NCBI GenBank assembly: GCA_903928685.1
Contig: CAIYRS010000093.1
Coordinates: forward strand, 1 to 44,058
Direction of reading: 5' to 3'
Length of the DNA stretch: 44,058 nt
DNA from: an uncultured Methylococcaceae bacterium
GTDB lineage: Bacteria > Pseudomonadota > Gammaproteobacteria > Methylococcales > Methylomonadaceae
Below the pieces are notes generated by a model. The model made no database searches. It was not told the origin of the DNA and worked only from the letters and a program-made list of their open reading frames with translations. Shown one piece after another: positions 1 through 35,943 of the stretch (position 1 is its first letter; every line of letters starts with the position of its first letter). A program made the translations under genes and the position numbers.

Positions 1-528
1 CCGATTGATACTCATAGTGGAATTGGCTTTGAAAAATTAGATAATTTTAATGAATTAAAGGTCTATTTAGCCAATTCTGTAAATACCGAATTTTATGTTT
101 CTGAGTTTATTGACTATCAAAGCACGGATGGCAATTATCGAAAATTAAGAATCGCATTAATAGATAGAAAGCCGTATATATGCCATCAAGCAATTTCTGA
201 ACAATGGATGGTTCATTATATGTCTTCAGGTATGGAGCTCAGTGAATTCAAACGTAAGGAAGAGCAATGGGTTATGGAAAATTTTGATCTGGATTTTGCG
301 CTAAGGCATGGTGCAGCGTTATTTGCAATTGCTGAACGGTTTGAGCTTGATTATGTTGTGATTGATTGTGCACAAAGTAAAGATGGCGAATTAATATTGT
401 TTGAGGTTGATCCAAGGTGCTGGGTTCACGCCACAGATTCCGTTGAAATATTTCCCTATAAATTGCTAGTTATGCAAAAAGTATTTAATGCATTTAGAAA
501 CTTGTTATTGAAAAAGTCATCTGTTTAA
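1..528 (+). CDS. ATP-grasp family protein, C-terminal part (5' end outside window)
   Basis: The frame is open from base 1 to the stop at 526-528, so 175 codons of a longer gene are visible. The segment looks like the C-terminal half of an ATP-grasp ligase of the RimK/glutathione-synthetase type. A strand ending YVSEFIDYQ (about residues 41-49) corresponds to the hinge region. A later strand, LFEVDPRCW (about residues 133-141), sits where these enzymes carry the metal-binding Glu and Asn; here an Asp replaces the usual Asn. Such enzymes join a carboxylate to an amine through an acyl-phosphate; the substrate cannot be read from this fragment. The first ATG at 208 is internal and is not the start. 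The fold is fairly clear, the role is not. Confidence 0.6.
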   Translation, partial: PIDTHSGIGFEKLDNFNELKVYLANSVNTEFYVSEFIDYQSTDGNYRKLRIALIDRKPYICHQAISEQWMVHYMSSGMELSEFKRKEEQWVMENFDLDFALRHGAALFAIAERFELDYVVIDCAQSKDGELILFEVDPRCWVHATDSVEIFPYKLLVMQKVFNAFRNLLLKKSSV

Positions 529-616
529 TAAAAGAATTATGGGAATTTAATAATGTGTTTGTTAAAAGCAATCAAGTTGACAGTATAGTGGGTAAGAATA
601 TTTACCATGCCAACTT

Positions 617-1372
617 ATGAATTTAATAAATTTATTGCTATTTATTGTTGTTTTATTAAATAGTAGTATTCCTGTTTTGGCTGCACCCACAAGAAGTAGA
701 GATGCCAAGTCCCATAAGAAAGATGCTTCGTTAAACAAGGTTGATACAACACCCAACCTCGAAGATACAGATGTTTTTACAGTAACTTCAGAAGCCAATT
801 TATATCAAAATTCATTGTACGAAAATTTTGATATTGATTTTTCGTCTACAAATGGCTGGGATGTTCAGCTATCTTCCTATAATGTTCCTGTCTATCAAGA
901 TCCGAATTTAGATCTGCCTTACCAGGCGGATACCTTTATCAATGTATCCAAAACCTTTAAACTTAATAATTCATTAAATCTTATTTTTGGTTCCCAGAAC
1001 GGAACTTATCTTGCAGCAAAACCGACAGTTACACAATGGCAAAACCTGGATTATTCACAAGTATTGTGGCAGGTTAATTCATTGATATCACTTAGAGGAG
1101 GGCTTTATTGGGCCAATTCAATTATGTCGGGAACAACGGATGTGCTTGGATATATTCCAGGTTTTACTGTAAATTTAATTGAAGACAAGCTAACCTTGCA
1201 AGCTGATTATTATAGTGGTCAATCAAATCTTTCGGGAGCCATAGTAAACTTGCAATATCAGGCAAGCAGATATTTTCAGTCTTATATAGGAGTGGGTGTC
1301 CCGGAGCAAAATTCAGGTAATGAGTTTTATGGGATTGTGGGTTTTACTCTTTCATCACGAGGTTTATTTTAA
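617..1372 (+). CDS. Secreted beta-rich protein, possible outer-membrane barrel
   Basis: The protein has 251 residues and I do not recognise a named family. The first 22 or so residues are a hydrophobic signal peptide ending near PVLA-AP. A charged, low-complexity stretch follows (about residues 25-50). The rest alternates polar and hydrophobic residues in short strands rich in aromatic, Asn, Ser and Gly residues, with strand-like pairs such as LNLIFGSQNG and LTLQADYYSG, and it ends in Phe. That pattern suits an outer-membrane or periplasmic beta-barrel. It lies 88 bases after the ATP-grasp gene in the same direction and converges on the response-regulator gene with a gap of only 16 bases. No strong ribosome binding site is visible before the ATG. 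Confidence 0.55.
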   Translation: MNLINLLLFIVVLLNSSIPVLAAPTRSRDAKSHKKDASLNKVDTTPNLEDTDVFTVTSEANLYQNSLYENFDIDFSSTNGWDVQLSSYNVPVYQDPNLDLPYQADTFINVSKTFKLNNSLNLIFGSQNGTYLAAKPTVTQWQNLDYSQVLWQVNSLISLRGGLYWANSIMSGTTDVLGYIPGFTVNLIEDKLTLQADYYSGQSNLSGAIVNLQYQASRYFQSYIGVGVPEQNSGNEFYGIVGFTLSSRGLF

Positions 1373-1388
1373 ATTCAAAATTCTCTTG

Positions 1389-2069
1389 TTAGGTGATGTC
1401 CATTTTATAGCCAAAACCACGCACCGTTTTTAATAATTTAAGCTCAAAATCGTCATCAATCTTTCGTCGTAATTGGCGAATATACACATCAACCACGTTA
1501 GTTAAGGGATCTGCGCTGTAGCCCCAAACCTGTTCCAGTATGCGTGTACGGCTTAAAACCTTGCCGGGCATTCGCATAAAGCATTCCAATAAGGCAAATT
1601 CTTTTGGCGTCAAAATAATAGGTGTTTCACCTCGTTGAACTTCGTGGGTTTCTCCATTTAATACCAGATCAGCAATCGTAAACTCTCTGTTATCCGGTTT
1701 TGTCAGGCCACCACGACGACGCATCAGGACTTCGATACGTGCCATCAATTCTTCAAAAGCGAAGGGTTTGGTCATATAGTCATCGGCTCCAGATCTCAGA
1801 CCGGTAACTTTATCATGAACCGTGTCTCTTGCCGTTAGCATCAAAATGGGTGTGGTAACTCCCAGACTACGTAAACGCTCACAAACTTCTCGTCCATTAA
1901 GATCAGGCAACCCCAAATCCAGAATAATGACTTTGAATTTGCCTTCTTTGCCTAGAGCTATGGCTTCCATACCCGTTCTGGCAACCTCGACATTATAACT
2001 TTCAGCTTTAAGTCCTCGCTGAACAAAATCAACAATACGCTGATCGTCTTCCACTAGCAAAATTCGCAT
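1389..2069 (-). CDS. OmpR/PhoB-family response regulator
   Basis: The 226-residue protein has the standard two-domain layout. A receiver domain (about 1-115) has the acidic pair D8/D9, the phospho-acceptor D51 in ILDLGLPD, a Thr in MLTARD and the Lys of TKPF. A winged-helix DNA-binding domain follows (about 130-225) with the VVDVYIRQLRRKID recognition region. It should bind DNA after phosphorylation by a partner kinase. It is the last gene of the minus-strand operon with two kinase-like genes and a lipoprotein gene, 98 bases after the intact kinase. A good ribosome site (TAAGGA) lies just before the ATG. It is closest in style to the QseB/CopR group, but the regulon is unknown. GlrK/QseE systems normally use an NtrC-type regulator, so an OmpR-type one here is unusual. 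Confidence 0.9.
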   Translation of the reverse strand: MRILLVEDDQRIVDFVQRGLKAESYNVEVARTGMEAIALGKEGKFKVIILDLGLPDLNGREVCERLRSLGVTTPILMLTARDTVHDKVTGLRSGADDYMTKPFAFEELMARIEVLMRRRGGLTKPDNREFTIADLVLNGETHEVQRGETPIILTPKEFALLECFMRMPGKVLSRTRILEQVWGYSADPLTNVVDVYIRQLRRKIDDDFELKLLKTVRGFGYKMDIT

Positions 2070-2167
2070 ATAACTGATGTCCTTAAATTAAATGTAACAA
2101 GTATAAAGCGCTGAATCTCGATTACATGAGAAAATTAATTGTGCAGTTTATTTTTTAGGTCATAAAT

Positions 2168-3808
2168 TTAAACACTATGAAATAAACTTTTACGCTGACT
2201 TGTTTTTTCGTCAACGGGTTCAACCGAATTAAGCGGTAATGTAACAGTAAATGTCGAACCTGAATTTTCAACGCTAGTTACACTAATACTTCCGTCAAGT
2301 GCCGTAAGGATTGACTTAGCCATTGGCAAACCTAAACCAGTGCCATCGTCATTGGTACTGCGGGCATTTTGACTGCGAAAATGGCGATCGAATATACGTT
2401 CTAAATCCTGACTGGGAATCCCTATTCCAGAATCGGTAAGGCTTAATATCGCTTTATTTGCCTCAGAGCGCAAGGTGACGTTAATACATCCCCCCGACTT
2501 TGAATAGCGACAGGCGTTATCACCCAAAATGAAAAGTATCTGGCGCAGGCGCTGTTTGTCTGCTCGAACCCAAATAGGTTTATCTGGCGCTTCAAGATCA
2601 AGAGATACGGAAATTGATTTTTCCTGGGCCATGACTTCGAAATCTTCGACGGCGCTAATTACCAATTCGCAAAGATTAACCTTATCAGATTCAAATTGAA
2701 GATTCGCGGTTTCTGCACGAGCCAGAAACAAGAGATCGTTTACATATTTCCCCAGTTGCATTGCCAGTTCGACGATACGATGCAAAGTATCCCTATACTC
2801 TTCAGGTTCACGTTCCTTGCCTCTTAACGTCACCTCAGCTTCCCCTCGAATGACAGTGATTGGGGTGCGCAATTCATGGCTTATATCAGCCAGAAACTCT
2901 CGCCGTGCAATATCCATGCGCTTTAATTCTTCGTTTAAGTGGTGTAGTTCAAAGGTACGTTCGGCAACTTTTTTCTCAAGCTGGGCACGCCCTTGGCGAA
3001 GTTTATTTTGCTGAACTTCAAGTTCCTGTGCCATTTGATTGAAATGGCTGGCCAGGTATGAAAATTCATTGCGGGCCTCAAGCTCAATGCGGTAGTCCAG
3101 ATTTCCTGAGGCAATCTCGTCTGTACCTTTCATTAAAACTTCGATTGGTTTTCGAACACCATTTAACAGTAATAAGCCTGATGTAAGGCTAAATAGAGCT
3201 GCACTCAATGAAGCCAAAATAGCGATCCAACGAGATTGGGAAAGCAACTCTTTCATTTCTTGTTGGGCTATTCCAGCGTTATTTTTCTCAGCTTCGATTG
3301 CGGAATCAATAAGTGGCTGGAATTTCCCATCTATTTGTTCTTCAGAAAACTTTGAAAGTGCCTGCACGGCCAACTCATACTTACCTTGTTGACGCAAACG
3401 CTCGACTTCGTTAAAGCGATACTCGCTGGCTTCCAAAAACACCGTAAAATGGGCGACTCTTTCAAGTTCAGCTGAATTATCTGGACGATCTTCGTCTTGA
3501 TTTTCTGCATCCGAAGTCTTGATTGCCGTGTTTCTGAGCTCCTGCATTGCCTGGTATAGTCGTTGTCTGGATGATTCCACGCCGGCTTTGGCAGTTGGAT
3601 TGGCTGTTATCAAGCTATCCATACGTTGTTTAAAGTGACGATAGGCTTCCTGAGACAGACGTTCATAATGATCAAATGCTTCATAGGCCCGCTGGCTGCG
3701 ATGAAAATGTCGGGATACCTGATTTGCCCCCCAATAAAGAGCACCGCCCAAAAACAGGACAAAACTGAAGGAAACAATGATGACAACAGCTAGCCGTATA
3801 CGAAACAT
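2168..3808 (-). CDS. Membrane sensor histidine kinase with HAMP domain
   Basis: This 546-residue kinase starts with a transmembrane helix (about 7-28). A mostly helical periplasmic region of about 160 residues follows, then a second helix (about 194-216), a HAMP domain, a coiled coil (about 260-300), a HisKA domain with H311 in DISHELRTP, and a HATPase domain. The N box (GDNACRYS), G1 box (DSGIGI) and G2 box (GTGLGL) are all present, so it should be an active kinase. It is the only kinase in this operon with a phospho-acceptor His, so it is the likely phospho-donor for the OmpR-type regulator downstream. It begins 6 bases after the lipoprotein gene, which suggests coupled translation. The signal sensed is unknown. 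Confidence 0.9.
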   Translation of the reverse strand: MFRIRLAVVIIVSFSFVLFLGGALYWGANQVSRHFHRSQRAYEAFDHYERLSQEAYRHFKQRMDSLITANPTAKAGVESSRQRLYQAMQELRNTAIKTSDAENQDEDRPDNSAELERVAHFTVFLEASEYRFNEVERLRQQGKYELAVQALSKFSEEQIDGKFQPLIDSAIEAEKNNAGIAQQEMKELLSQSRWIAILASLSAALFSLTSGLLLLNGVRKPIEVLMKGTDEIASGNLDYRIELEARNEFSYLASHFNQMAQELEVQQNKLRQGRAQLEKKVAERTFELHHLNEELKRMDIARREFLADISHELRTPITVIRGEAEVTLRGKEREPEEYRDTLHRIVELAMQLGKYVNDLLFLARAETANLQFESDKVNLCELVISAVEDFEVMAQEKSISVSLDLEAPDKPIWVRADKQRLRQILFILGDNACRYSKSGGCINVTLRSEANKAILSLTDSGIGIPSQDLERIFDRHFRSQNARSTNDDGTGLGLPMAKSILTALDGSISVTSVENSGSTFTVTLPLNSVEPVDEKTSQRKSLFHSV

Positions 3809-3814
3809 GCTGGC

Positions 3815-4411
3815 TTAGTGCTTGTCGCCGCTTTCATCCAGGTGTTTCTCCATGGATCTTATCGCTTCCAGTTTTTCTCTTAGCAAGTCTGCTTCAGTTT
3901 TCTTGGCCCCGCTTACCTCTTTGGCCTCTGTTCCAGATTTATCTGTTTTTTGTTTGCGTTCTGATGTGACATTCTTTTTTGGTGCTGCTGGAGGCAGTAA
4001 GCGTTTTAAAGCTTCTGTTTGAATAATAAACATTTTCTGCATTCTTTCATCAGAAAAAACCTCAGGTTGAATTGTGCTTATCCCATCCAGAATTTTAGGA
4101 ACTTCGCCGCAGGTATCAGATAGTAAGCGGCCTAGCATAATTTGTAATTGTATTGCATCATCAGGTGAGCTCTTTTGGCGTTTTTGTAAGCTACGACATA
4201 TCTCTGTTCTTGCCGTTGGTGAACTTTTTGCCATGTTAACACCAAAAACGAGGAAATCATCAAAGTCAGATTGAACGTTTTGAACTGTTATTGGTGGAGG
4301 ACTCTCGTTCAAATTTGTATTGACCTTTGCACAGCCACTCAGTAATAAAGTAGCAAGCGTTAAACAGGTGGATATTTTTGGAAATGATGCCGTTGATGAA
4401 GGCTGTTGCAT
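3815..4411 (-). CDS. Small lipoprotein of a two-component operon (QseG-like position)
   Basis: The protein has 198 residues and a clear lipobox (LLLSGC, acylated Cys27), so it should be a lipoprotein anchored in a membrane of the envelope. The mature part is helical, with a Lys/Glu-rich charged stretch (about 140-165) and a coiled-coil-like C-terminus. It lies 5 bases after the degenerate GlrK/QseE-like kinase gene and 6 bases before the intact kinase gene. In enterobacteria the QseG lipoprotein is encoded directly after the QseE kinase and controls it. By position, size and lipobox this is a QseG-like accessory protein; sequence identity cannot be judged by eye. It may link an envelope signal to one or both kinases. 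Confidence 0.6.
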   Translation of the reverse strand: MQQPSSTASFPKISTCLTLATLLLSGCAKVNTNLNESPPPITVQNVQSDFDDFLVFGVNMAKSSPTARTEICRSLQKRQKSSPDDAIQLQIMLGRLLSDTCGEVPKILDGISTIQPEVFSDERMQKMFIIQTEALKRLLPPAAPKKNVTSERKQKTDKSGTEAKEVSGAKKTEADLLREKLEAIRSMEKHLDESGDKH

Positions 4412-4416
4412 ATTAG

Positions 4417-5883
4417 TCAGTTCTGTTGGGTTAGCGGTATTTGCACAAGGATACGAACGCCTTGTTGATCTTGTCTTGAATCAATAATATCGATCTTACC
4501 CTGGTGGTTGGTTATATATTCTTTAATTATTGCCAGTCCCAATCCAGGGCCTTGGCCAATTTCGTCAGCCAGCAAGTTTTTGCCATGGAAAAAAGGTTCG
4601 AACAAATGCAGCCTATCCTCGGGATCAATTCCAGGCCCTTCATCTTCAACTTCCAATTCCATTTGCATATCCGAATCTCGAAGCATGACTCGAATTTCAC
4701 CGCCTTCCGGTGAGTATTTAATTGCATTTGAAAGCAATTGTTCGATGATGACCTGTAACTGATCAGGAATACCTGAAATTTCAACCGGCCTGGCCAGATT
4801 TTTCATGCTTATTGATTTTGCTTGAATTCTGGGTTCAAAATTATTGATGACAGACTCCAGTAATACTTTCATATTAACAGATACCTTTGAACTCATCGTT
4901 GGCCTTATGGCAGCCTGACTGTAACGGAGCAAACTTTTCGAAACTGTTTCTATTTGTTCAACATCATTGATGAGTTGTTGCGCAATATCTTGGCAGATCG
5001 GATTTTGCTCTTGATCCAACTGTGTTTGTTCAAGCAGTAGTTCAGTATTGTCTTTGATATTCGCCAGAGGATCATTAATTTCGCGAAATACGTTGCCCAT
5101 AAACTGTTGTTTAGAAATCTCCATATCAATTAGGTAATTGCGTAGCCATTCAAGGCGATTACCCAGATAGCGAAGATCCGAAGGACCGGCAATGACAATC
5201 GGTTTTTCAAGCTGTCCCGACCCTAGTCGGCGTATGCCGTTATCCAATTGCTTTAGTGAGCGGGAAAGGATTATTAATAACAGTGCAATAAAAATGAACG
5301 ACATGACCAGAAGAATAGCTCCTTTGATTAGAAGTCCATGTTCAAGTGAGGCTGATTGTTTGCGTAATTCATTAAATTGGTTGTCAATGTAACTCTCGAA
5401 TTCACGGGAAAGTTTGCTTGATGATTCCCGCAATCCCTGGAACGCTTCATCGACCGGCAATTTAAGTGTGCTTTCACTTTCTGAGCTAATAATTTCTTGA
5501 TAAATCAGATTTTCTTTTTCCGATAATTCATTTACAGAGAGACTTATTTCATTATCGATGCGTAATTTTAACAGTTCGCTTAAAGCCTGTTTGAACGATG
5601 CTCTGGTATTTTCGTAGGATTGTTGTTCGTAAGGCTGCCGTACAGATGGATCTGATAAGAGTATGAATAACCGCGCCTTTCGTTCGATATCGGCGGTTTT
5701 TTGCAGAACCAAACGCACTGCTTTTGTTTGTTCAAAAACCTGATAATTGATGGTTCTGCCTAAGGTCGAGGTTTCACGCAAGCCAAATGTCGCATACATG
5801 ACCGCTAAATATAACGGAATAACCGCCAATAAAAAGCCAAGAATGATCAGTGATTTTAATGATAAAATTTTTTTTGACTTCAT
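4417..5883 (-). CDS. GlrK/QseE-like histidine kinase lacking the phospho-acceptor histidine
   Basis: The 488-residue protein has a transmembrane helix (about 9-30), a helical periplasmic region, a second helix (about 183-206), a HAMP-like linker with GPSDLRYLGNRLEWL, an H-box region and a HATPase domain. The linker and the stretch ending in NTELLLEQ match GlrK/QseE. In the H-box, where the family has an HELKTPL motif, this protein reads REINDPL: residue 267 is Arg (codon CGC at 5085-5083) instead of His. The ATP-binding boxes look intact (NAIKYS, DEGPGI, GQGPGLGL). It is therefore probably a pseudokinase sensor or a scaffold. It heads an operon with a lipoprotein, a second kinase and an OmpR-type regulator. 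The frame is intact and there is no sign of decay elsewhere. Confidence 0.85.
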   Translation of the reverse strand: MKSKKILSLKSLIILGFLLAVIPLYLAVMYATFGLRETSTLGRTINYQVFEQTKAVRLVLQKTADIERKARLFILLSDPSVRQPYEQQSYENTRASFKQALSELLKLRIDNEISLSVNELSEKENLIYQEIISSESESTLKLPVDEAFQGLRESSSKLSREFESYIDNQFNELRKQSASLEHGLLIKGAILLVMSFIFIALLLIILSRSLKQLDNGIRRLGSGQLEKPIVIAGPSDLRYLGNRLEWLRNYLIDMEISKQQFMGNVFREINDPLANIKDNTELLLEQTQLDQEQNPICQDIAQQLINDVEQIETVSKSLLRYSQAAIRPTMSSKVSVNMKVLLESVINNFEPRIQAKSISMKNLARPVEISGIPDQLQVIIEQLLSNAIKYSPEGGEIRVMLRDSDMQMELEVEDEGPGIDPEDRLHLFEPFFHGKNLLADEIGQGPGLGLAIIKEYITNHQGKIDIIDSRQDQQGVRILVQIPLTQQN

Positions 5884-6257
5884 TGGTGCATAAATAAGTT
5901 TGAATCATTATCCAGGATCGTTAGAAACATAGTAAATCCCGGCTTTATAAAGTTATACAAGAAGTTTGGGTGTTTAATAAAAGATTTTTAAGACAGATCC
6001 CTGTCTTGGAAAATGTAACCTGCATAGATAATTTAAGTTGTGTTCTATTATAACACCAGTGCAGATGCATCATCTTTCTGTAATAGTTTAAAGCGGTAGG
6101 GATGGTGACTGTATAACTGATTACAAGCCATCGGCTTAATATAAGTTTTTTAATATCTGGCTTTGTTCATATAAATTATAGATACTGCAGGAATGTGGCC
6201 TTAATCTAACTTATATTTACCTTAATAAGTCGATTGTTGCTCTTCGATAAATTCAAA
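5884..6257. other. 374-base gene-free gap upstream of the kinase operon
   Basis: No convincing gene is seen here. The gap is AT-rich and should hold the promoter of the minus-strand operon that begins at 5883, though I could not settle on one -10/-35 pair. A short inverted repeat (AGACAG, 4-base loop, CTGTCT) lies at 5991-6006. It could be a small operator or part of a weak terminator for the large PAS kinase region, but it lacks a T-run. Confidence 0.4.
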
Positions 6258-9071
6258 TCATTTTAATTCTATGGGCAGGGTAAAGTAAAACGTAGTGCCT
6301 TTTCCAGGTTCACTTTCAAAATTCAGCACGCCATTGTGCGCTTCAATCAATGAGCGACTGATCGATAACCCCATCCCCATACCATTTGTTTTAGTCGTAT
6401 AAAATGGCATTAATATTTTTTGTTGCTGCTCTATTTCAATCCCTGGCCCATTATCTTTAACCTGAACTATTATTTCATATCTTGCAGTCAAGTGACTGCG
6501 TATAGTTATCTGAAGGGGCTGTTCTTTAGTGTTGTTATCAAAGGCATCAATACTGTTTCTGATAAAGTTTAACAGCACTTGTTCAATTTGAATATGGTCG
6601 ACATGGATAGTCGGCAGATTCTCTTCCAGATCAAGATTTAAAGTAATGTTATTGTGTTTGAGTGCATCGGCACAGAGACTGACGCATTCATTGATCAATG
6701 AGTTAATATCTGTCGTTGAACGTTGGTGTGACTTTGATTTGCAGAAATTTTTCATGCGATGAATAATCTGGCCGGCACGCAAAGCCTGTTCTTTTGTTTT
6801 AACGATTACTTCGGAGAGCTTTTGCAGATCAGGATTTTCTTTGTTAATAAGATTCAGGCAAACTTGAGCATAGGTGGCAATTGCAGACAAAGGCTGATTG
6901 ACTTCATGGGCCAAACTCGACGCCATTTCCCCCATTAATCCAAGGCGAGTCACATGCGCCAATTGATCCAGATGTTCTTGATCCAGTTGCTCGCGGTATT
7001 TTCGTAAGCTCACATCACGCACTATATAGGTGAAAAACCGACTATTATCGATTTGGTATTCCGCTATGGTCAGGTCTAGATATATTACTGTGCCATTTTT
7101 ATGCAAGCCTTCAATCTCGATGACTTCAGAAATTGCGTTCGAGGTAAAGGAGTAGCGTTTGATAGTATGGATTTTTGCTATTAATGGTATGAGTTTAGTG
7201 GCTTTAGTATCCAATAACTCTTGCAGTTTATAGCCGAAAATACGTTCTACTGAAGGATTGGCAGTTGTAATCATACTGTTTAAGTTGACAGTGATGATGC
7301 CCTCCACAGAAGCATTGAATATCGAGTTGAACTTGCTTTCAAAATGTTTACGCCAGGTAATATCATACAGAATGATCAGACTCATACCATTTGATAAATG
7401 ATCTAAATTGGCGTTACTGGCCAATACAGTTTTATTTTGCTTGTTCTTGCAACATATTAAAACCTCGAGAGGTATTAGTTCATTACATTCATGTGTAATA
7501 TCTTCCTGAATAATTTTCCAGTTAGTTTGAACCCACTTGCTATACTCCGCATTTGGGTAGGCTTTCGGCCACCAAGCTTCAAGTGTTGGAATATCCTCAA
7601 GTTCATAACCAAAGGTCTGCACAAACATAGAATTGAGAAATACAATATTAGAGTGTTTATCGATCAATGCCATTGGCACAGGTGAGAGATCGATAATTGA
7701 GCGGGATTTTAATTCGCTGACTTTTAACTCCTGCTCAAATAATTTACGTTGTGATATGTCCCTGCAAAATACGGAAAACTGCTCAAATTCAGAGAGATAA
7801 GCGACAGAGATTTCGATATCAATAACATGACCGAGTTTATGGCGATGACGTGTTTCAAAGTGATCAAAACCCAGATTAATTACTTTATCGATATGTGCTT
7901 TTACTGACTGATTATCTTCAATAACTTCCAATTGACTAATGTGCATACCTACCAATTCATCTGGCAAGTAACCTATGATTTTTGAATAGCCAGGATTAAC
8001 CTTTAGGATGTTTCCCTGTAAATCATTAATCCAGAAGCCATCCAGAGAGATATCAACCATTGCTTCCAGTTGATTTAATGTTTGGTGATGCCTTTTATTC
8101 TCAGTGATATCGGTAATAAAGCCATGCCAGAGTGTTGCACCGTGAGATTCTTTTTGGGGTAAGGAATTACCACGCAACCAGCGAACCGAGTCATCTTCAA
8201 ACTTCACGCGATATTCAAAGAACCATGGCGTTAAGTTTTGAGCTGATATTTGAATCGATTTATAGACCTCTTCATAATCGTCCGGATGAATTAGATTAAA
8301 AACTTTACTCGCATCATCCTTGACTTCCTCCGGGTCGAGTCGATAAATGTCAGCCATAGCTTGACTGGCATAAGGAAAGCAGCAACTACCATCAGGATTC
8401 ATGAGAAATTGATAAATAACACCGGGGAGGGCGTTGGAAATCTCATGAAGTCGAGTATGCGCTTCATTTTGTATTTCGACTATCAGTAGTCGTTCTTCTT
8501 CGATGTTTGCAGATCGATCAAAAGCTATTGGGTCGGTATTGGATTCTAACTGTTGTATTGAACTGAGGTTGGTTAAGGTAATGCGCAGCAATGAATCAAC
8601 AAATGTACAGTTTAACTGGGCAGGAAATTCGCAGTTATCCTTACCTTTTATGGCAAGTTTGATATTCATGCACTGCTTGTACTTGAGTATATGGGCAAAA
8701 AACAGATGCCAATACTCGCAGTCTTTAACGCTAACCAGACCCGCAAATCGTCGGGTTATGAGTTTGTTTCTTTCAAATCCGAGCAATTCGGCTGAAGTAA
8801 AATTGGCTTGTTTTATTAATCCCTGTTTTGTTAGAACCAGGTAAGCAACGGGGGCGTTTTCAAACAGATCAAGGTAACAATTGCGAGATTCTTCAAGGGC
8901 ACTTTGGGTGCGACGCAGTTCTTCATTCTGCAATTCAAGTTCAAGCTGATATACCTGATGTATATGAGCTAAATCTTTAGTGGGATAATTCTCCGATGCA
9001 TCGATAGGTTCATGCTCTAGCAGTGCTTTGGTATTCGTCTGAATAGAAGTCGAATCATCTTTTTTTTTCAT
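6258..9071 (-). CDS. Multi-PAS sensor histidine kinase (orphan, soluble)
   Basis: The 937-residue protein has no obvious membrane segment. A coiled coil (about 35-65) leads into PAS domains at roughly 66-180, 205-330 (with a PAC-type end, FITDITENKR), 335-450 (FCRDISQRK), 455-580 (LYDITWRKH) and 585-705 (YIVRDVSLRK). A HisKA domain follows with H722 in LAHEVNQPLSAI, then a HATPase with NSIDAF, DNGPGI and GMGMGLS boxes. The NQPL form of the H-box is typical of NtrB/FixL/DctB-type kinases. All phosphotransfer residues are present. No regulator gene adjoins it, so it is an orphan kinase. The first region, opening with LFENAPVAYLVL, is a common entry PAS in kinases of this type. Ligands such as haem or flavin cannot be assigned. 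Confidence 0.9.
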   Translation of the reverse strand: MKKKDDSTSIQTNTKALLEHEPIDASENYPTKDLAHIHQVYQLELELQNEELRRTQSALEESRNCYLDLFENAPVAYLVLTKQGLIKQANFTSAELLGFERNKLITRRFAGLVSVKDCEYWHLFFAHILKYKQCMNIKLAIKGKDNCEFPAQLNCTFVDSLLRITLTNLSSIQQLESNTDPIAFDRSANIEEERLLIVEIQNEAHTRLHEISNALPGVIYQFLMNPDGSCCFPYASQAMADIYRLDPEEVKDDASKVFNLIHPDDYEEVYKSIQISAQNLTPWFFEYRVKFEDDSVRWLRGNSLPQKESHGATLWHGFITDITENKRHHQTLNQLEAMVDISLDGFWINDLQGNILKVNPGYSKIIGYLPDELVGMHISQLEVIEDNQSVKAHIDKVINLGFDHFETRHRHKLGHVIDIEISVAYLSEFEQFSVFCRDISQRKLFEQELKVSELKSRSIIDLSPVPMALIDKHSNIVFLNSMFVQTFGYELEDIPTLEAWWPKAYPNAEYSKWVQTNWKIIQEDITHECNELIPLEVLICCKNKQNKTVLASNANLDHLSNGMSLIILYDITWRKHFESKFNSIFNASVEGIITVNLNSMITTANPSVERIFGYKLQELLDTKATKLIPLIAKIHTIKRYSFTSNAISEVIEIEGLHKNGTVIYLDLTIAEYQIDNSRFFTYIVRDVSLRKYREQLDQEHLDQLAHVTRLGLMGEMASSLAHEVNQPLSAIATYAQVCLNLINKENPDLQKLSEVIVKTKEQALRAGQIIHRMKNFCKSKSHQRSTTDINSLINECVSLCADALKHNNITLNLDLEENLPTIHVDHIQIEQVLLNFIRNSIDAFDNNTKEQPLQITIRSHLTARYEIIVQVKDNGPGIEIEQQQKILMPFYTTKTNGMGMGLSISRSLIEAHNGVLNFESEPGKGTTFYFTLPIELK

Positions 9072-9252
9072 GGAACACTACCTTGCGAATTTGCGAAATA
9101 TGCAACGATATATATTGGGGATTTGTTTAGATAATCACTTCTTTGTTCAGGTCAAAAAAACTTCAATAACAGTAGTTTCTGTAGCGCACTATTTAAATAT
9201 TTGGGGATGCGCAGTTGGGTCGTTCGATACTTGAAGATGCGCTATGTACCCT

Positions 9253-10416
<1,164 letters not shown>

Positions 10417-10450
10417 TTATCGGGAGCTGTGCTTATTTGTAAGGTCGAAT

Positions 10451-10795
10451 TTACAGATTGTTGGTATAGCCACTCGCTTTGCTAAAACCAAGAATGAGTG
10501 TGTCGCCGGTATCTAAAATCGGGCGTTTAATTAGGGTAGGGCAGTCCAGCATCAGTTGCAGGGCTTTTTCTTGTGTCAGGTCGCTTTGTTGTTCTGCGCT
10601 TAGTTGCCGCCAGCTGGTACTGCTGCGGTTAAGCAGTTTGTTCCAGTCTAAATGGCTGGCAAAGTGCTGTAATAATTCAGGGGTTAACCCATCGGTTCTA
10701 AAATCGTGGAACCGATAGGCTATGCCGTTTTGATCCAGCCAGTTACGCGCTTTTTTGACGGTGTCGCAGTTTTTTATGCCATAAAGCGTGTGCAT
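10451..10795 (-). CDS. yffB: ArsC/Spx-family reductase-like protein YffB
   Basis: The 114-residue protein has the thioredoxin-like ArsC/Spx fold. It begins with LYGIKNCDTVKKA, in which Cys10 is the single conserved cysteine, and carries the late KRPIL motif (about 92-96). The family includes arsenate reductases, but YffB-type members are only presumed glutathione-dependent thiol reductases. In many gammaproteobacteria yffB sits next to dapE, as it does here. It starts 4 bases after the stop of the small acidic gene upstream, so it is probably co-transcribed. No second catalytic cysteine is present, so a glutathione partner would be needed. The link with lysine synthesis is by position only. 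Confidence 0.88.
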   Translation of the reverse strand: MHTLYGIKNCDTVKKARNWLDQNGIAYRFHDFRTDGLTPELLQHFASHLDWNKLLNRSSTSWRQLSAEQQSDLTQEKALQLMLDCPTLIKRPILDTGDTLILGFSKASGYTNNL

Positions 10796-10799
10796 GTTT

Positions 10800-11042
10800 T
10801 TACAATTGGCTGTTTAACAATTCTTCAATATCAGGCAATTGCTTGTCTGTTTTGCAACGGATTTTGTAAAGATCAACAAATTCCATGAAGGCCTGTTCAA
10901 GATCAGCCAGAATTTCTTCTTCGTTTTCTCGCTCATCTTCAGGAACATCTTCTGATTCAAGATATTCGTGTTGCAGGGCGACTTCGCTGTTTAAAGCAAG
11001 CGTGGCGTAAATGATCGCATTGTTTGAGATGTTGTCGCTCAT
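10800..11042 (-). CDS. Small acidic hypothetical protein
   Basis: This 80-residue protein is not recognised. It is strongly acidic, with a Glu/Asp-rich middle (about 24-48) containing VPEDERENEEE, and is otherwise predicted helical. It has one Cys, no signal peptide and no membrane segment. It sits 50 bases after the DUF1456 gene and 4 bases before yffB, on the same strand, which supports translation as part of the operon. Its acidic helical nature would suit a binding partner or regulator rather than an enzyme, but no function can be assigned. Confidence 0.6.
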   Translation of the reverse strand: MSDNISNNAIIYATLALNSEVALQHEYLESEDVPEDERENEEEILADLEQAFMEFVDLYKIRCKTDKQLPDIEELLNSQL

Positions 11043-11092
11043 GATATTAGCCTTGGTTAAGTGAAAGTGGGGTTAGGTGTTAACTGCGCTTT

Positions 11093-11566
11093 TTAATCTT
11101 GTTCTCTAAAGCGAACCGTAAGACCTTGTAAAAAATTTCTTAAGATCTGATCGCCGCATTCACGGTGATGTTTATGACCTTTTTGTCTGAAAAATGAGCT
11201 GAGTTCGCCTTTAGATAATTCAAAGTCAGCCAGTTTCAACGTGCTTAGCATGTCTTCTTCTTTAAATTCCAGCGCGATTCTCAATTTTTTGAGTATGGTG
11301 TTATTAGTTAACGGCTCCGGTTTTTTTGCCGGTTCCGTTGAAGGGGTTTCCTGCTTGCCTCTTTTGTAAATAATCAGACCGTCCAAAAACTGCCCAAGTA
11401 GTTTATTGTCCAGAGGGACAAAATCTTCTTCATTATCTTTTTTAAGTAACTTGAGCAATTCGTCCCGACTTACTTCGGCATCACACAAGGCAAAGATTTC
11501 AAGCATGGTTGGGTCTTTAAGCTCTAAAGCGTAACGCACCCGGCGTAATACATCGTTGTTGATCAT
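11093..11566 (-). CDS. DUF1456 (YehS-like) protein
   Basis: The 157-residue protein consists of two copies of the DUF1456 unit. Each opens with a similar segment: NNDVLRRVRYALELKD (about 3-18) and NNTILKKLRIALEFKE (about 88-103). Each then has a helix ending in a Phe/Leu-rich segment: LLGQFLDGLIIYKRG and ILRNFLQGLTVRFRE. This matches E. coli YehS in layout and size. The function of the family is unknown; it is a small cytoplasmic helical protein. Its ATG overlaps the stop of the Uma2-like gene (ATGA at 11563-11566), so the two are translationally coupled. A linker rich in Pro, Lys and Glu (about 72-86) separates the halves. Confidence 0.85.
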   Translation of the reverse strand: MINNDVLRRVRYALELKDPTMLEIFALCDAEVSRDELLKLLKKDNEEDFVPLDNKLLGQFLDGLIIYKRGKQETPSTEPAKKPEPLTNNTILKKLRIALEFKEEDMLSTLKLADFELSKGELSSFFRQKGHKHHRECGDQILRNFLQGLTVRFREQD

Positions 11567-12207
11567 GTTATTTCTGTGGCAAAGTGTTGTGATTGCTCAG
11601 CATTCTGAGCATCGGTGTTGTTTTTTTCCTGCAAATAAGCTAAGACATCTTCATTATTGACCTGGTAATAAATATCCTCAACAGGCACCGAAACACCTAT
11701 GGATTCGAAAGTTATCGTGTCACCCAGATAGTAATATGAAGATTGCCAATGTTCTTTTTTTCTGAAGACCTCAATTTCCCCGATGGCTTGTTCAATTAAA
11801 ACGTATTCTTCCAAAGTTGGAATTTGTAGATATTTTAAGCGTTTGGCGGTTTTATCAAAGCGTCTTGTCGATTTTGACAAGACTTCAATGACAATAACGG
11901 GCGCTTGTTGGTAATAGTCAGACTTTTTCGTCGTGTCATCCTGCTGACAAACCACCATGACATCAGGATAGAAGAAATCATGAGCGACCTTGACTTTCAT
12001 GTCAGCGATAAAAGCTCTACAAGGTGTGCCTTTTAATTGAGCTTTTAATTCAGTATATATATTACCTGAGAGAAAGTTATGTATCTCACTTGCTCGAGCC
12101 ATGGCATAAACTTCACCATCAATGAACTCATGCTTTATTTTTGCAACAAGCTCACCCTGAAGATACTCATTTTCCGTGATCCGGTTATCGGCATAATTCA
12201 GACTCAT
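11563..12207 (-). CDS. Uma2-family (DUF820) endonuclease-like protein
   Basis: The 214-residue protein belongs to the Uma2/DUF820 family, which has a PD-(D/E)XK nuclease-like fold. Visible landmarks are NYADNRITENEYL at the start, the GEVYAMARASEIHNFLSGN helix, the catalytic-looking Asp of FYPDVMVV (about 78-85) and the Glu of VIVIEVLSKSTRRFDK (about 104-119), followed by KYLQIPTLEEYVLIEQ. Uma2 genes are abundant in cyanobacteria and some proteobacteria, but their biological role is not established. It lies 46 bases after dapD and overlaps the DUF1456 gene by 4 bases. Its place inside a dap operon suggests later insertion. The last 20 residues are polar and not part of the fold. Confidence 0.9.
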   Translation of the reverse strand: MSLNYADNRITENEYLQGELVAKIKHEFIDGEVYAMARASEIHNFLSGNIYTELKAQLKGTPCRAFIADMKVKVAHDFFYPDVMVVCQQDDTTKKSDYYQQAPVIVIEVLSKSTRRFDKTAKRLKYLQIPTLEEYVLIEQAIGEIEVFRKKEHWQSSYYYLGDTITFESIGVSVPVEDIYYQVNNEDVLAYLQEKNNTDAQNAEQSQHFATEIT

Positions 12208-34230: not shown

Positions 34231-35943
34231 ATGGCTAGTCAAAACCGATATTCAAAAGCATTCCTGCTGGCGATAGCCCTGCATGTGACGCTATTGTTGT
34301 TATTCACCCTGAGTGCTTGGTTAAAACCCGACAAACAACCCGTCAGCGATCCTAAGCCGGAAATCATTCATGCCACCATGATTGATGCTGAACAAATTTC
34401 CGAAATGGAAGCGCAAGTCAATGCTGAAAAACAAGCCGAACAGCAAAAACTGTTGGAAGAACAGCAACGCATAGCAGAAGAACAAGCGCGAAAACAAGCA
34501 GAATTGGCAGCTCAGCAACAGGCAATTGAAGAAGAGAAAGCCAAGAAATCCGAACTCGCCAAAGAAAAAGCTGAAGCTGCTGCTGAGGCAAAAGCCGAAG
34601 CTAAAAAAGCTGAGCTTGCCAAAGAAAAGGCCGAAGCCGCCGCTCAAGCGAAAGCCGAAGCCAAGAAAGCTGAATTAGCCAAAGAAAAAGCTGAAGCTGC
34701 CGCTGAGGCAAAAGCCGAGGCCAAGAAAGCCGAACAAGCCAAAGAAAAGGCCGAAGCCGCCGCTCAAGCGAAAGCCGAAGCCAAGAAAGCTGAACAAGCC
34801 AAAGAAAAAGCTGAAGCTGCTGCCGAGGCAAAAGCCGAAGCCAAGAAAGCCGAACAAGCCAAAGAAAAAGCTGAAGCTGCTGCCGAGGCAAAAGCAGAAG
34901 CCAAAAAAGCTGAATTAGCCAAAGAAAAGTCAGAAGCTGCCGCTCAAGCGAAAGCAGAAGCCAAGAAAGCCGAATTAGCCAAAGAAAAGGCTGAAGCCGC
35001 TGCCGAGGCAAAAGCCGAAGCCAAAAAAGCTGAGTTAGCCAAAGAAAAAGCCGAAGCCGCAGAACAGGCGAAAGCAGAAGCAAAGAAAGCAGAGTCAGCT
35101 AAGTCAAAATCAGAAGCTGCTGCAAAGGCTAAAGCGGAAGCCGAAGGTAAAGCTAAGGCCGAGGCTGCTGCAAAAGCCAAAGCGGATGCAGAAGGTAAAG
35201 CTAAGGCCGAAGCGGCTGCAAAGGCTAAAGCGGAAGCTGAAGGTAAAGCCAAGGCTAAAGCGGAAGCTGAAGGTAAAGCCAAGGCCAAAGCGGAAGCCGA
35301 AGGTAAAGCTAAGGCCGAAGCCGCTGCAAAGGCCAAAGCGGAAGCTGAAGGTAAAGCCAAGGCCGAAGCCGCTGCAAAAGCCAAAGCGGAAGCTGAAGGT
35401 AAAGCCAAGGCCGAGGCTGCCGCAAAGGCCAAAGCGGAAGCCGAAGGCAAAGCCAAGGCTGAAGCCGCTGCAAAAGCCAAAGCGGATGCAGAAGCAAAAG
35501 TTAAGGCCGAAGCTGCTGCAAAGGCCAAAGCGGAAGCTGATGCGAAAGCCAAGGCTGAAGCTGCTGCAAAGGCTAAAGCGGATGCAGAAGCAAAAGCTAA
35601 GGCAGATGCCGCTGCGAAAGCTAAAGCAGAGGCCGATGCAAAAGCCAAAGCGGCAGCTCAAGATGCTGAGTTAAATGAGTTGAAATTAGCCTTAAGGAAA
35701 AGGGTTACAGCTAAATGGATACGGCCAGCCTCTACTACACAAGACTTAAAGTGTACTTTGGAGGTTCGTCTTATGTCTGACGGAACGGTTATAGATGTCA
35801 GAACGGTAACCAGTAGTGGCGATGATATTTTTGATCGTTCAGCTGAGAATGCTGTTCAGGCGGCATCTCCATTACCTATACCTAAAGACAAGGAATTATT
35901 TTCCAAAGCATTTAGACCGCTTGTATTTACATTCAAGCCTTAA
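34231..35943 (+). CDS. tolA: Tol-Pal system protein TolA with an expanded repeat domain
   Basis: The 570-residue protein has an N-terminal membrane anchor (about 10-31), a very long helical domain II (about 65-480) and a C-terminal domain III (about 482-570) with LRKRVTAKWIRPAS and LEVRLMSDGTVIDVRTV. Domain III binds TolB and Pal at the outer membrane. E. coli TolA has about 421 residues, so domain II is about 150 longer. The first part of domain II is nine tandem 60-base units, each coding for 20 residues of KAEAAAEAKAEAKKAE type (34561-35100). A second array of shorter AEGKAKAEAAAKAK units runs to about 35660. The role is to span the periplasm and transmit energy from TolQR. Confidence 0.96.
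   Translation: MASQNRYSKAFLLAIALHVTLLLLFTLSAWLKPDKQPVSDPKPEIIHATMIDAEQISEMEAQVNAEKQAEQQKLLEEQQRIAEEQARKQAELAAQQQAIEEEKAKKSELAKEKAEAAAEAKAEAKKAELAKEKAEAAAQAKAEAKKAELAKEKAEAAAEAKAEAKKAEQAKEKAEAAAQAKAEAKKAEQAKEKAEAAAEAKAEAKKAEQAKEKAEAAAEAKAEAKKAELAKEKSEAAAQAKAEAKKAELAKEKAEAAAEAKAEAKKAELAKEKAEAAEQAKAEAKKAESAKSKSEAAAKAKAEAEGKAKAEAAAKAKADAEGKAKAEAAAKAKAEAEGKAKAKAEAEGKAKAKAEAEGKAKAEAAAKAKAEAEGKAKAEAAAKAKAEAEGKAKAEAAAKAKAEAEGKAKAEAAAKAKADAEAKVKAEAAAKAKAEADAKAKAEAAAKAKADAEAKAKADAAAKAKAEADAKAKAAAQDAELNELKLALRKRVTAKWIRPASTTQDLKCTLEVRLMSDGTVIDVRTVTSSGDDIFDRSAENAVQAASPLPIPKDKELFSKAFRPLVFTFKP
34561..35100 (+). repeat. Nine tandem 60-base repeats inside tolA
   Basis: Nine units of exactly 60 bases follow one another with only synonymous or conservative changes, each coding for a 20-residue Lys/Glu/Ala helix. 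Individual bases differ between copies at third positions, so the array is not newly formed. It keeps the reading frame and heptad-like charge pattern of a single long alpha helix. A second, less regular array of AEGKAKAEAAAKAK-type units follows to about 35660. Confidence 0.9.

Follow-up and report, generated by a model that had tools for sequence, protein, structure and literature searches.

How does a QseE/GlrK-like sensor protein pass on its signal when the expected NtrC-type regulator is replaced by one of the OmpR type and a further, intact kinase? This question is raised by four minus-strand open reading frames (ORFs) at positions 5883 to 1389 of a 44,058-nucleotide stretch of DNA from an uncultured Methylococcaceae bacterium (assembly GCA_903928685.1, contig CAIYRS010000093.1), the whole of which we refer to as the window. 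In gene order, they encode a QseE/GlrK-like pseudokinase of 488 amino acids (aa), a lipoprotein of 198 aa, a sensor histidine kinase of 546 aa (the partner kinase), and an OmpR-family response regulator of 226 aa, separated by gaps of 5, 6, and 98 bases. The original prediction had proposed a rewired system in which the lipoprotein and pseudokinase tune the second kinase; its gene calls and gap lengths were borne out by the ORF list and by Pfam scans. Comparison across genomes makes it likely that a QseE/QseG sensor module became detached from QseF and now feeds into an OmpR-type pair of separate origin via its sensor and membrane parts.

The pseudokinase (4417 to 5883, minus strand) has two transmembrane (TM) helices, a helical periplasmic sensor, and kept G boxes. 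Its best match among solved chains was 9m08_C (E value, 4e-34), from an entry titled as a QseG-QseE complex; the match covered residues 8 to 485, in effect the full length, and was the only one of 53 to start before residue 200. Pfam recognized HATPase_c at 82.6 bits, and HisKA reached 18.7 bits, below its cutoff of 26.9. An AlphaFold model was of modest quality (pLDDT, 69), and its 50 listed fold matches were histidine kinases or parts thereof. The H-box reads FREINDP, with R267 (codon 5085-5083) at the position of the QseE His, D at H+4, and Q at the first N-box position.

To place this protein, we searched the 237 genomes of the window's family (f1), the 38 genomes of a second family (f4), which includes a Methylocaldum strain, and a class sample of 369 genomes. 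The profile searches scored the best 6 candidates per genome for the f1 pseudokinase and kinase and the best 3 to 4 for the class-sample kinase. In f1, 81 of 237 genomes had a pseudokinase profile match at an E value of ≤1e-40, 65 of the window type and 16 of the canonical QseE type; each had a single match, and thus no f1 genome (0/237) holds both types. We examined the neighborhoods of 62 of the 65 window-type genes (window included) and of 13 canonical genes, namely, 7 of the 16 from f1 and six from other families. The three remaining window-type genes are contig-edge fragments (G068, G181, and G182) assigned to the 65 by score, and one of the 62 pseudokinases (G098) is identical to that of the window, leaving 61 distinct proteins.

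The order pseudokinase-lipoprotein-kinase was found in all 62 neighborhoods, with exactly 5 bases between lipoprotein and kinase genes in 52 of them. The regulator was also visible in 56, so that the gene order, whose recurrence elsewhere the original prediction had put up for checking, is indeed conserved. Of the other six neighborhoods, five stop at a contig edge and one (G175, locus L122) showed no regulator in about 3.3 kb. Among named genomes, a scan yielded 57 loci: 41 carry the complete four-gene set, 6 the first three genes, 6 pseudokinase and lipoprotein only, and 4, located at or close to the end of a contig, the pseudokinase alone; the genera with the gene order include Methylobacter, Methylomonas, Methylovulum, Methyloglobulus, and Methylicorpusculum. 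At the 13 canonical loci, the lipoprotein gene is followed instead by a regulator of 452 to 472 aa (one cut by a contig end), and the five of these that were scanned all had a receiver and a sigma-54 activator domain. The partner kinase was present in 63 of the 65 f1 genomes with the pseudokinase versus none of the 172 others (E value of ≤1e-120).

The residues needed for phosphotransfer have been lost in most of these proteins. At the phospho-acceptor site, the 62 pseudokinases had Arg (48), His (5), Leu (4), or Lys, Cys, Asn, Tyr, or Glu (1 each), versus His in 13 of 13 canonical QseE-type proteins. Thr at H+4 was found in 3/62 versus 13/13, His and Thr never occurred together (0/62), and the first N-box Asn was seen in 0/62 versus 13/13. 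In lacking residues for phosphotransfer, the protein resembles the accessory pseudo-histidine kinases of the DivL and RocA kind, and it may, like them, bind and modulate an active kinase. On the pseudokinase tree, the His/non-His state changed at least three times, most simply by one basal loss and two putative regains (in the four-genome clade of L026 and in G097), although such a count cannot tell whether the His was gained or lost, and the tree has several long branches.

The partner kinase and regulator, in contrast, appear fully equipped. The kinase (2168 to 3808, minus strand) has a TM-sensor-TM region, HAMP, a DHp domain (H311 and T315), and HATPase_c; Pfam gave HAMP, HisKA (67.5 bits), and HATPase_c, and the H-box reads SHELRTP (H311 codon 2878-2876). 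The regulator (1389 to 2069, minus strand) matched Response_reg and Trans_reg_C, with D51 (codon 1919-1917), K101, and a winged-helix output domain. The two proteins therefore hold everything expected of an OmpR-type pair, from HAMP, HisKA with its His, and HATPase_c to the receiver Asp and the winged helix. The kinase His and H+4 Thr were kept in 62/62 and the regulator D51 in 56/56.

The lipoprotein gene (3815 to 4411, minus strand) directly follows the pseudokinase gene, as the QseG-type gene does in QseEGF. Its product carries the lipobox LLSGC, with C27 (codon 4333-4331), and a conserved C-terminal helix, LLREKLEAIRSMEK, and it is homologous to the lipoproteins of canonical QseEGF loci. 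The lipobox Cys was kept in all 62 lipoproteins, and C72, C101, and helix residues K180 and E188 were common to the lipoproteins of the 62 and the 13 canonical loci, apart from alignment gaps at the C72 position in 2/62 and at the C101 position in 1/62. A Pfam scan of the lipoprotein found no family. A fold search gave 212 matches, none at an E value of ≤0.001, among which 7x6f ranked 7 (E value, 0.94; probability, 0.57) and 9m08_A ranked 16 (E value, 1.8; probability, 0.25). Because of its position, its lipobox, its homology to the canonical-locus lipoproteins, and this weak fold match, we take the lipoprotein to be a putative QseG equivalent, a weaker assignment than that of the pseudokinase.

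The part of the sensor that would meet such a lipoprotein is conserved as well. In the complex as described in PMC12691602, QseE E69-R70 and R73 bind QseG, the R70A change abolishes and R73A weakens the binding, and the C-terminal region of QseG is the QseE-binding part. By alignment, the corresponding residues of the window pseudokinase lie in E67-R68-K69-A70-R71, with codons R68-R71 at 5671 to 5682 (minus strand). R68, aligned with QseE R70, is Arg in 61/62 pseudokinases and 11/13 canonical proteins, and a basic residue, Arg or Lys, occupies position 71 in 60/62 and 13/13, respectively. Next to this QseG-contact helix, at residues 82 to 91 (window positions 5640-5611, minus strand), the sensor is five residues longer and carries a strongly conserved RQPYE..SYE segment; the extra residues were missing from six aligned canonical relatives.

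The second family contains receptors that have lost their kinase domains. At seven f4 loci, the receptor lacked the DHp and catalytic domains. Four of these (L193 to L196) end after a HAMP-like region; the other three (L251, L252, and L253, from G661, G662, and G664) end within about 30 residues past the second membrane helix, so early that HAMP must also have been lost. These three loci nevertheless retain the MERKAR motif, a lipoprotein with KKLEAIRA.EKKID, and an intact kinase (SHELRTP). At all four reduced loci that could be read far enough (L193, L251, L252, and L253), the receptor is followed by lipoprotein, kinase, and then regulator, although in L193 and L253 the contig stops within the regulator gene. 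If the reduced receptors work, the signal leaves via the sensor or membrane helices, without phosphotransfer, and we therefore rank a conformational relay above trans-phosphorylation.

In the same family, the two halves of the system can also stand apart. By profile searches alone, where the pseudokinase type was assigned by profile score and match range, 13 of the 38 f4 genomes had the pseudokinase type and 16 had the partner kinase: 11 had both, 2 the pseudokinase only, 5 the kinase only, and 20 neither (Fisher P = 0.0003, uncorrected for relatedness). Pseudokinase and canonical types can coexist in a single f4 genome. The loci read for short receptors were those of the five kinase-only genomes; they showed short receptors in G661, G662, and G664, a divergent pseudokinase in G650, and neither in G651, so that 15 of the 16 f4 kinase genomes have a receptor or pseudokinase. 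In G650 (L255:3081-7615), the pseudokinase-lipoprotein pair lies head to head with the kinase-regulator pair, and the pseudokinase has N at its His site.

Seven f4 genomes have a full-length pseudokinase without an adjoining kinase, and all seven lack the His (G057, R; G634, E; G637, L; G638, I; G639, T; G640, T; G665, R). The kinase is elsewhere in all seven, from about 22 kb to >1 Mb away or on another contig, and in the five of these genomes in which the kinase locus was read, the regulator adjoins it. Only two genomes of the class sample, that of the window and G462, had the kinase at an E value of ≤1e-90; in G462, the kinase-regulator pair and a QseE-QseF-type locus are on separate contigs. 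Judging by these unlinked f4 kinases and the separate contigs of G462, kinase and regulator seem to form an independent unit, to which receptor and lipoprotein were added as another.

Selection on the locus was compared by part with Nei-Gojobori dN/dS over 135 genome pairs, which are not independent, and medians are given throughout. For whole genes, dN/dS was 0.120 for the pseudokinase versus 0.113 for the partner kinase; the corresponding values were 0.075 versus 0.103 for the sensor, 0.144 versus 0.086 for HAMP-DHp, and 0.141 versus 0.135 for the catalytic domain. The sensor is thus the part of the pseudokinase most guarded by selection, and the part used for dimerization and phosphotransfer is relaxed.

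Taken together, these observations are consistent with the following scheme. The QseE-QseG receptor module would have been cut from the NtrC-type regulator QseF and attached to another kinase with an OmpR-type regulator. To judge from the conserved interface residues, the outer membrane lipoprotein may bind the QseE-like protein at its helical domain in the periplasm, in the way known for QseG and QseE. Since the QseE-like protein is unable to carry a phosphoryl group in most species, it would signal to the partner kinase by a conformational change that runs through its sensor and membrane helices. The relay would shift the balance between the kinase and phosphatase activities of the partner, which, as its family suggests, would phosphorylate D51 of the regulator and so switch genes.

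Other explanations have to be weighed against this scheme. The variable His site, and the complete loss of the kinase domains in some f4 genomes, could mean that the locus is a decaying QseE-QseG remnant with an accidental neighbor. Decay, which the original prediction had named as a possible outcome, was rejected on the basis of dN/dS and the conserved gene order: the whole pseudokinase gene is under purifying selection, most strongly in its sensor, the lipobox Cys and the C-terminal helix of the lipoprotein are conserved, and the order is kept across the family and in the reduced forms. We give this explanation hardly any weight. A different possibility is that the pseudokinase forms a heterodimer with the partner kinase and acts by its retained ATP-binding domain, either trans-phosphorylating H311 or sensing or sequestering ATP, in the manner of RetS-GacS. 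This would explain why the G-box residues are largely kept (D414 and G416 in 62/62, G447 in 59/62, G449 in 60/62, and G445 in 46/62) and why the catalytic domains of pseudokinase and active kinase are under similar constraint, and the kept G boxes leave room for possible ATP binding by the f1 pseudokinases. However, the first N-box Asn was lost in all 62 f1 proteins, constraint on HAMP-DHp, the expected site of dimerization, is weaker than in the active kinase, and the seven f4 receptors do without DHp and catalytic domains; three of them lack HAMP as well, and these three all still stand before lipoprotein, intact kinase, and regulator. We therefore regard a heterodimer of this kind as quite improbable.

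It is also conceivable that the operon serves co-expression only, with two independent systems in which the receptor and lipoprotein act elsewhere in the envelope (for example, on an exported protein described below) and the kinase-regulator pair works alone. Kinase-regulator pairs without a visible receptor (G462 and G651), the two reduced-receptor genomes that show no kinase, and the co-occurrence in f1 of the exported protein with the pseudokinase (in 47 of 49 genomes) speak for such independence. Yet the kinase is present in every one of the seven genomes with an unlinked full-length pseudokinase, was never found in f1 without the pseudokinase (0/172 genomes), and is accompanied by a receptor or pseudokinase in 15 of 16 f4 genomes. 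We thus consider two independent systems unlikely. The preferred reading remains that of a QseE/QseG module feeding the OmpR-type pair; of the original prediction, the rewiring is well supported by comparison, and the tuning of the second kinase is suggested by the reduced receptors that precede lipoprotein, kinase, and regulator.

It is important to note that several observations weigh against this reading. Five of the 62 pseudokinases have His at the phospho-acceptor site, two f4 pseudokinases (L184 and L247) keep the first N-box Asn, and the mostly kept G boxes would be unneeded by a pure relay. Two PDB searches with sequence profiles of the lipoprotein found no QseG, so its identity is unproven by sequence. 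The reduced-receptor genomes G632 and G633, the latter of which appears to be the same as G658 (99% complete), gave no kinase match at an E value of ≤1e-50, which speaks against strict coupling; conversely, in G651 (72% complete) and the distant G462, no receptor of this type was seen beside the kinase and regulator genes. In f1, the kinase and pseudokinase could co-occur simply because their genes are linked. Finally, the contacts between pseudokinase and kinase and between lipoprotein and pseudokinase, and the effect on the kinase, are predictions from sequence comparison.

The arrangement combines known kinds, namely, QseG-QseE and the accessory pseudokinases. DivL of Caulobacter has a different sensor and is not known to have an outer membrane lipoprotein partner or to share an operon with its kinase; RocA of group A Streptococcus is from a Gram-positive organism and is not known to have a lipoprotein partner or to lie in an operon with covRS; and RetS has another sensor and is not known to be linked to gacS or to have a lipoprotein. 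What these systems would share with the present one is described in the cited sources: inactive, kinase-like DivL toggles the active kinase CckA (PMC12189002), the pseudokinase RocA interacts with the sensor kinase CovS and works through CovS activities (PMC7028121), and in RetS-GacS one kinase controls another by heterodimerization, RetS being, in contrast to the pseudokinase here, a hybrid kinase (PMC12189002). RocA has a predicted His, and its change to Ala is described as leaving activity unaltered (PMC7028121).

The closest relative is QseE-QseG-QseF, in which QseG activates QseE (PMC6075780 and PMC12691602). The pseudokinase matches QseE over its full length with the QseG-contacting Arg pair kept, and the lipoprotein in the QseG position shares lipobox, C72/C101, K180, and E188 with the 13 canonical loci. 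The present system differs in lacking the His (57/62), the H+4 Thr (59/62), and the first N-box Asn (62/62), in the replacement of QseF by an OmpR-type regulator and an additional, intact kinase, in its longer RQPYE..SYE sensor segment, and in the f4 forms without kinase domains. Our searches of the literature on QseE/QseG, methanotrophs, pseudokinases, and accessory kinases, which covered open-license papers and, for broader queries, the top results only, did not find the arrangement. QseG-QseE is well described as a kinase activated by a lipoprotein, and a small number of pseudo-histidine kinases have been reported; both meet here in a single operon conserved among methanotrophs that are widespread. 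Natural steps are visible, from canonical QseEGF through the detached pseudokinase-lipoprotein pair and the joined four-gene operon to receptors without a kinase domain. The system makes receptor-to-kinase signaling without phosphotransfer, and the rewiring of sensor modules between regulator families, testable. In Methylobacter and Methylomonas, genera relevant to methane removal, it is also a candidate circuit for sensing the state of the envelope.

In many loci, the gene divergent from the pseudokinase encodes an exported protein of ∼1,220 aa (for example, L185:1862-5527, minus strand, L152, and L160), which also adjoins the detached pseudokinase-lipoprotein pairs L181, L182, and L184. It was found in 49 f1 genomes, 47 of them with the pseudokinase, which it tracks even when unlinked; 18 f1 pseudokinase genomes are without it. 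It was not found in the window's genome or in the class sample (0/369, a set without a positive control). Neither NCBIfam nor the PDB gave a match to the protein, and Pfam gave none that passed the cutoff; of two such proteins scanned with Pfam, one gave fn3_3 at 13.9 bits (cutoff, 24.4) and the other none. Its likeness to a glycan-active enzyme is our own unconfirmed impression, and we treat it as an assumption. Tentatively, and with slightly less confidence than would tip the balance in its favor, we suggest that the receptor is a pure transmembrane relay between the lipoprotein and the partner kinase, its kinase body dropped in some lineages until little more than a sensor and two membrane helices is left, and that this exported protein is the source of the signal or its main target. 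On that reading, two-component input modules would be interchangeable, the one here having passed from an NtrC-type circuit to one of the OmpR type.

Searches of the window's own genome gave neither a second QseE-like kinase (the next match reached 65 bits) nor a QseF orthologue: the three best matches were ∼32 to 46% identical to the 13 QseF-position proteins, with no clear winner, the 13 being 54 to 97% identical to one another. A hidden QseF or second QseE in this genome was thus rejected. The absence of an NtrC-type regulator noted in the original prediction therefore held, with the OmpR-type regulator in its place, and the standard GlrK and GlrR that it had suggested looking for elsewhere were found in this genome neither singly nor together. 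However, window positions 1 to 11883 are 99.9% identical to a contig of a Methylobacter metagenome-assembled genome (CAILCX010000014.1, L143). The genus group to which the window's assembly is assigned is that of Methylovulum miyakonense and M. psychrotolerans, and in the pseudokinase tree the window groups with genomes from the Methylobacter tundripaludum group. A contig has probably been misbinned in one of these two assemblies, and statements about the window's own genome are subject to this doubt; those about other genomes are unaffected.

From their spacing, the four genes are predicted to be co-transcribed. A motif scan of the window was uninformative: it found 9 sites resembling promoters, where 12.4 were expected, and 10 resembling terminators, where 4.1 were expected. 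Three of the latter are on the minus strand; all three are intragenic, with none in the three operon gaps. On the same strand, 374 bases upstream of the pseudokinase gene, lies a gene for a multi-PAS histidine kinase of 937 aa (6258-9071), whose best NCBIfam match, FixL, was under the cutoff and which, among the 62 family loci, was called only beside the window set and its G098 copy. Farther along the window, a putative TolA-like gene (34231-35943, plus strand) contains a very long A/E/K repeat section that gives rise to long overlapping ORFs on both strands.

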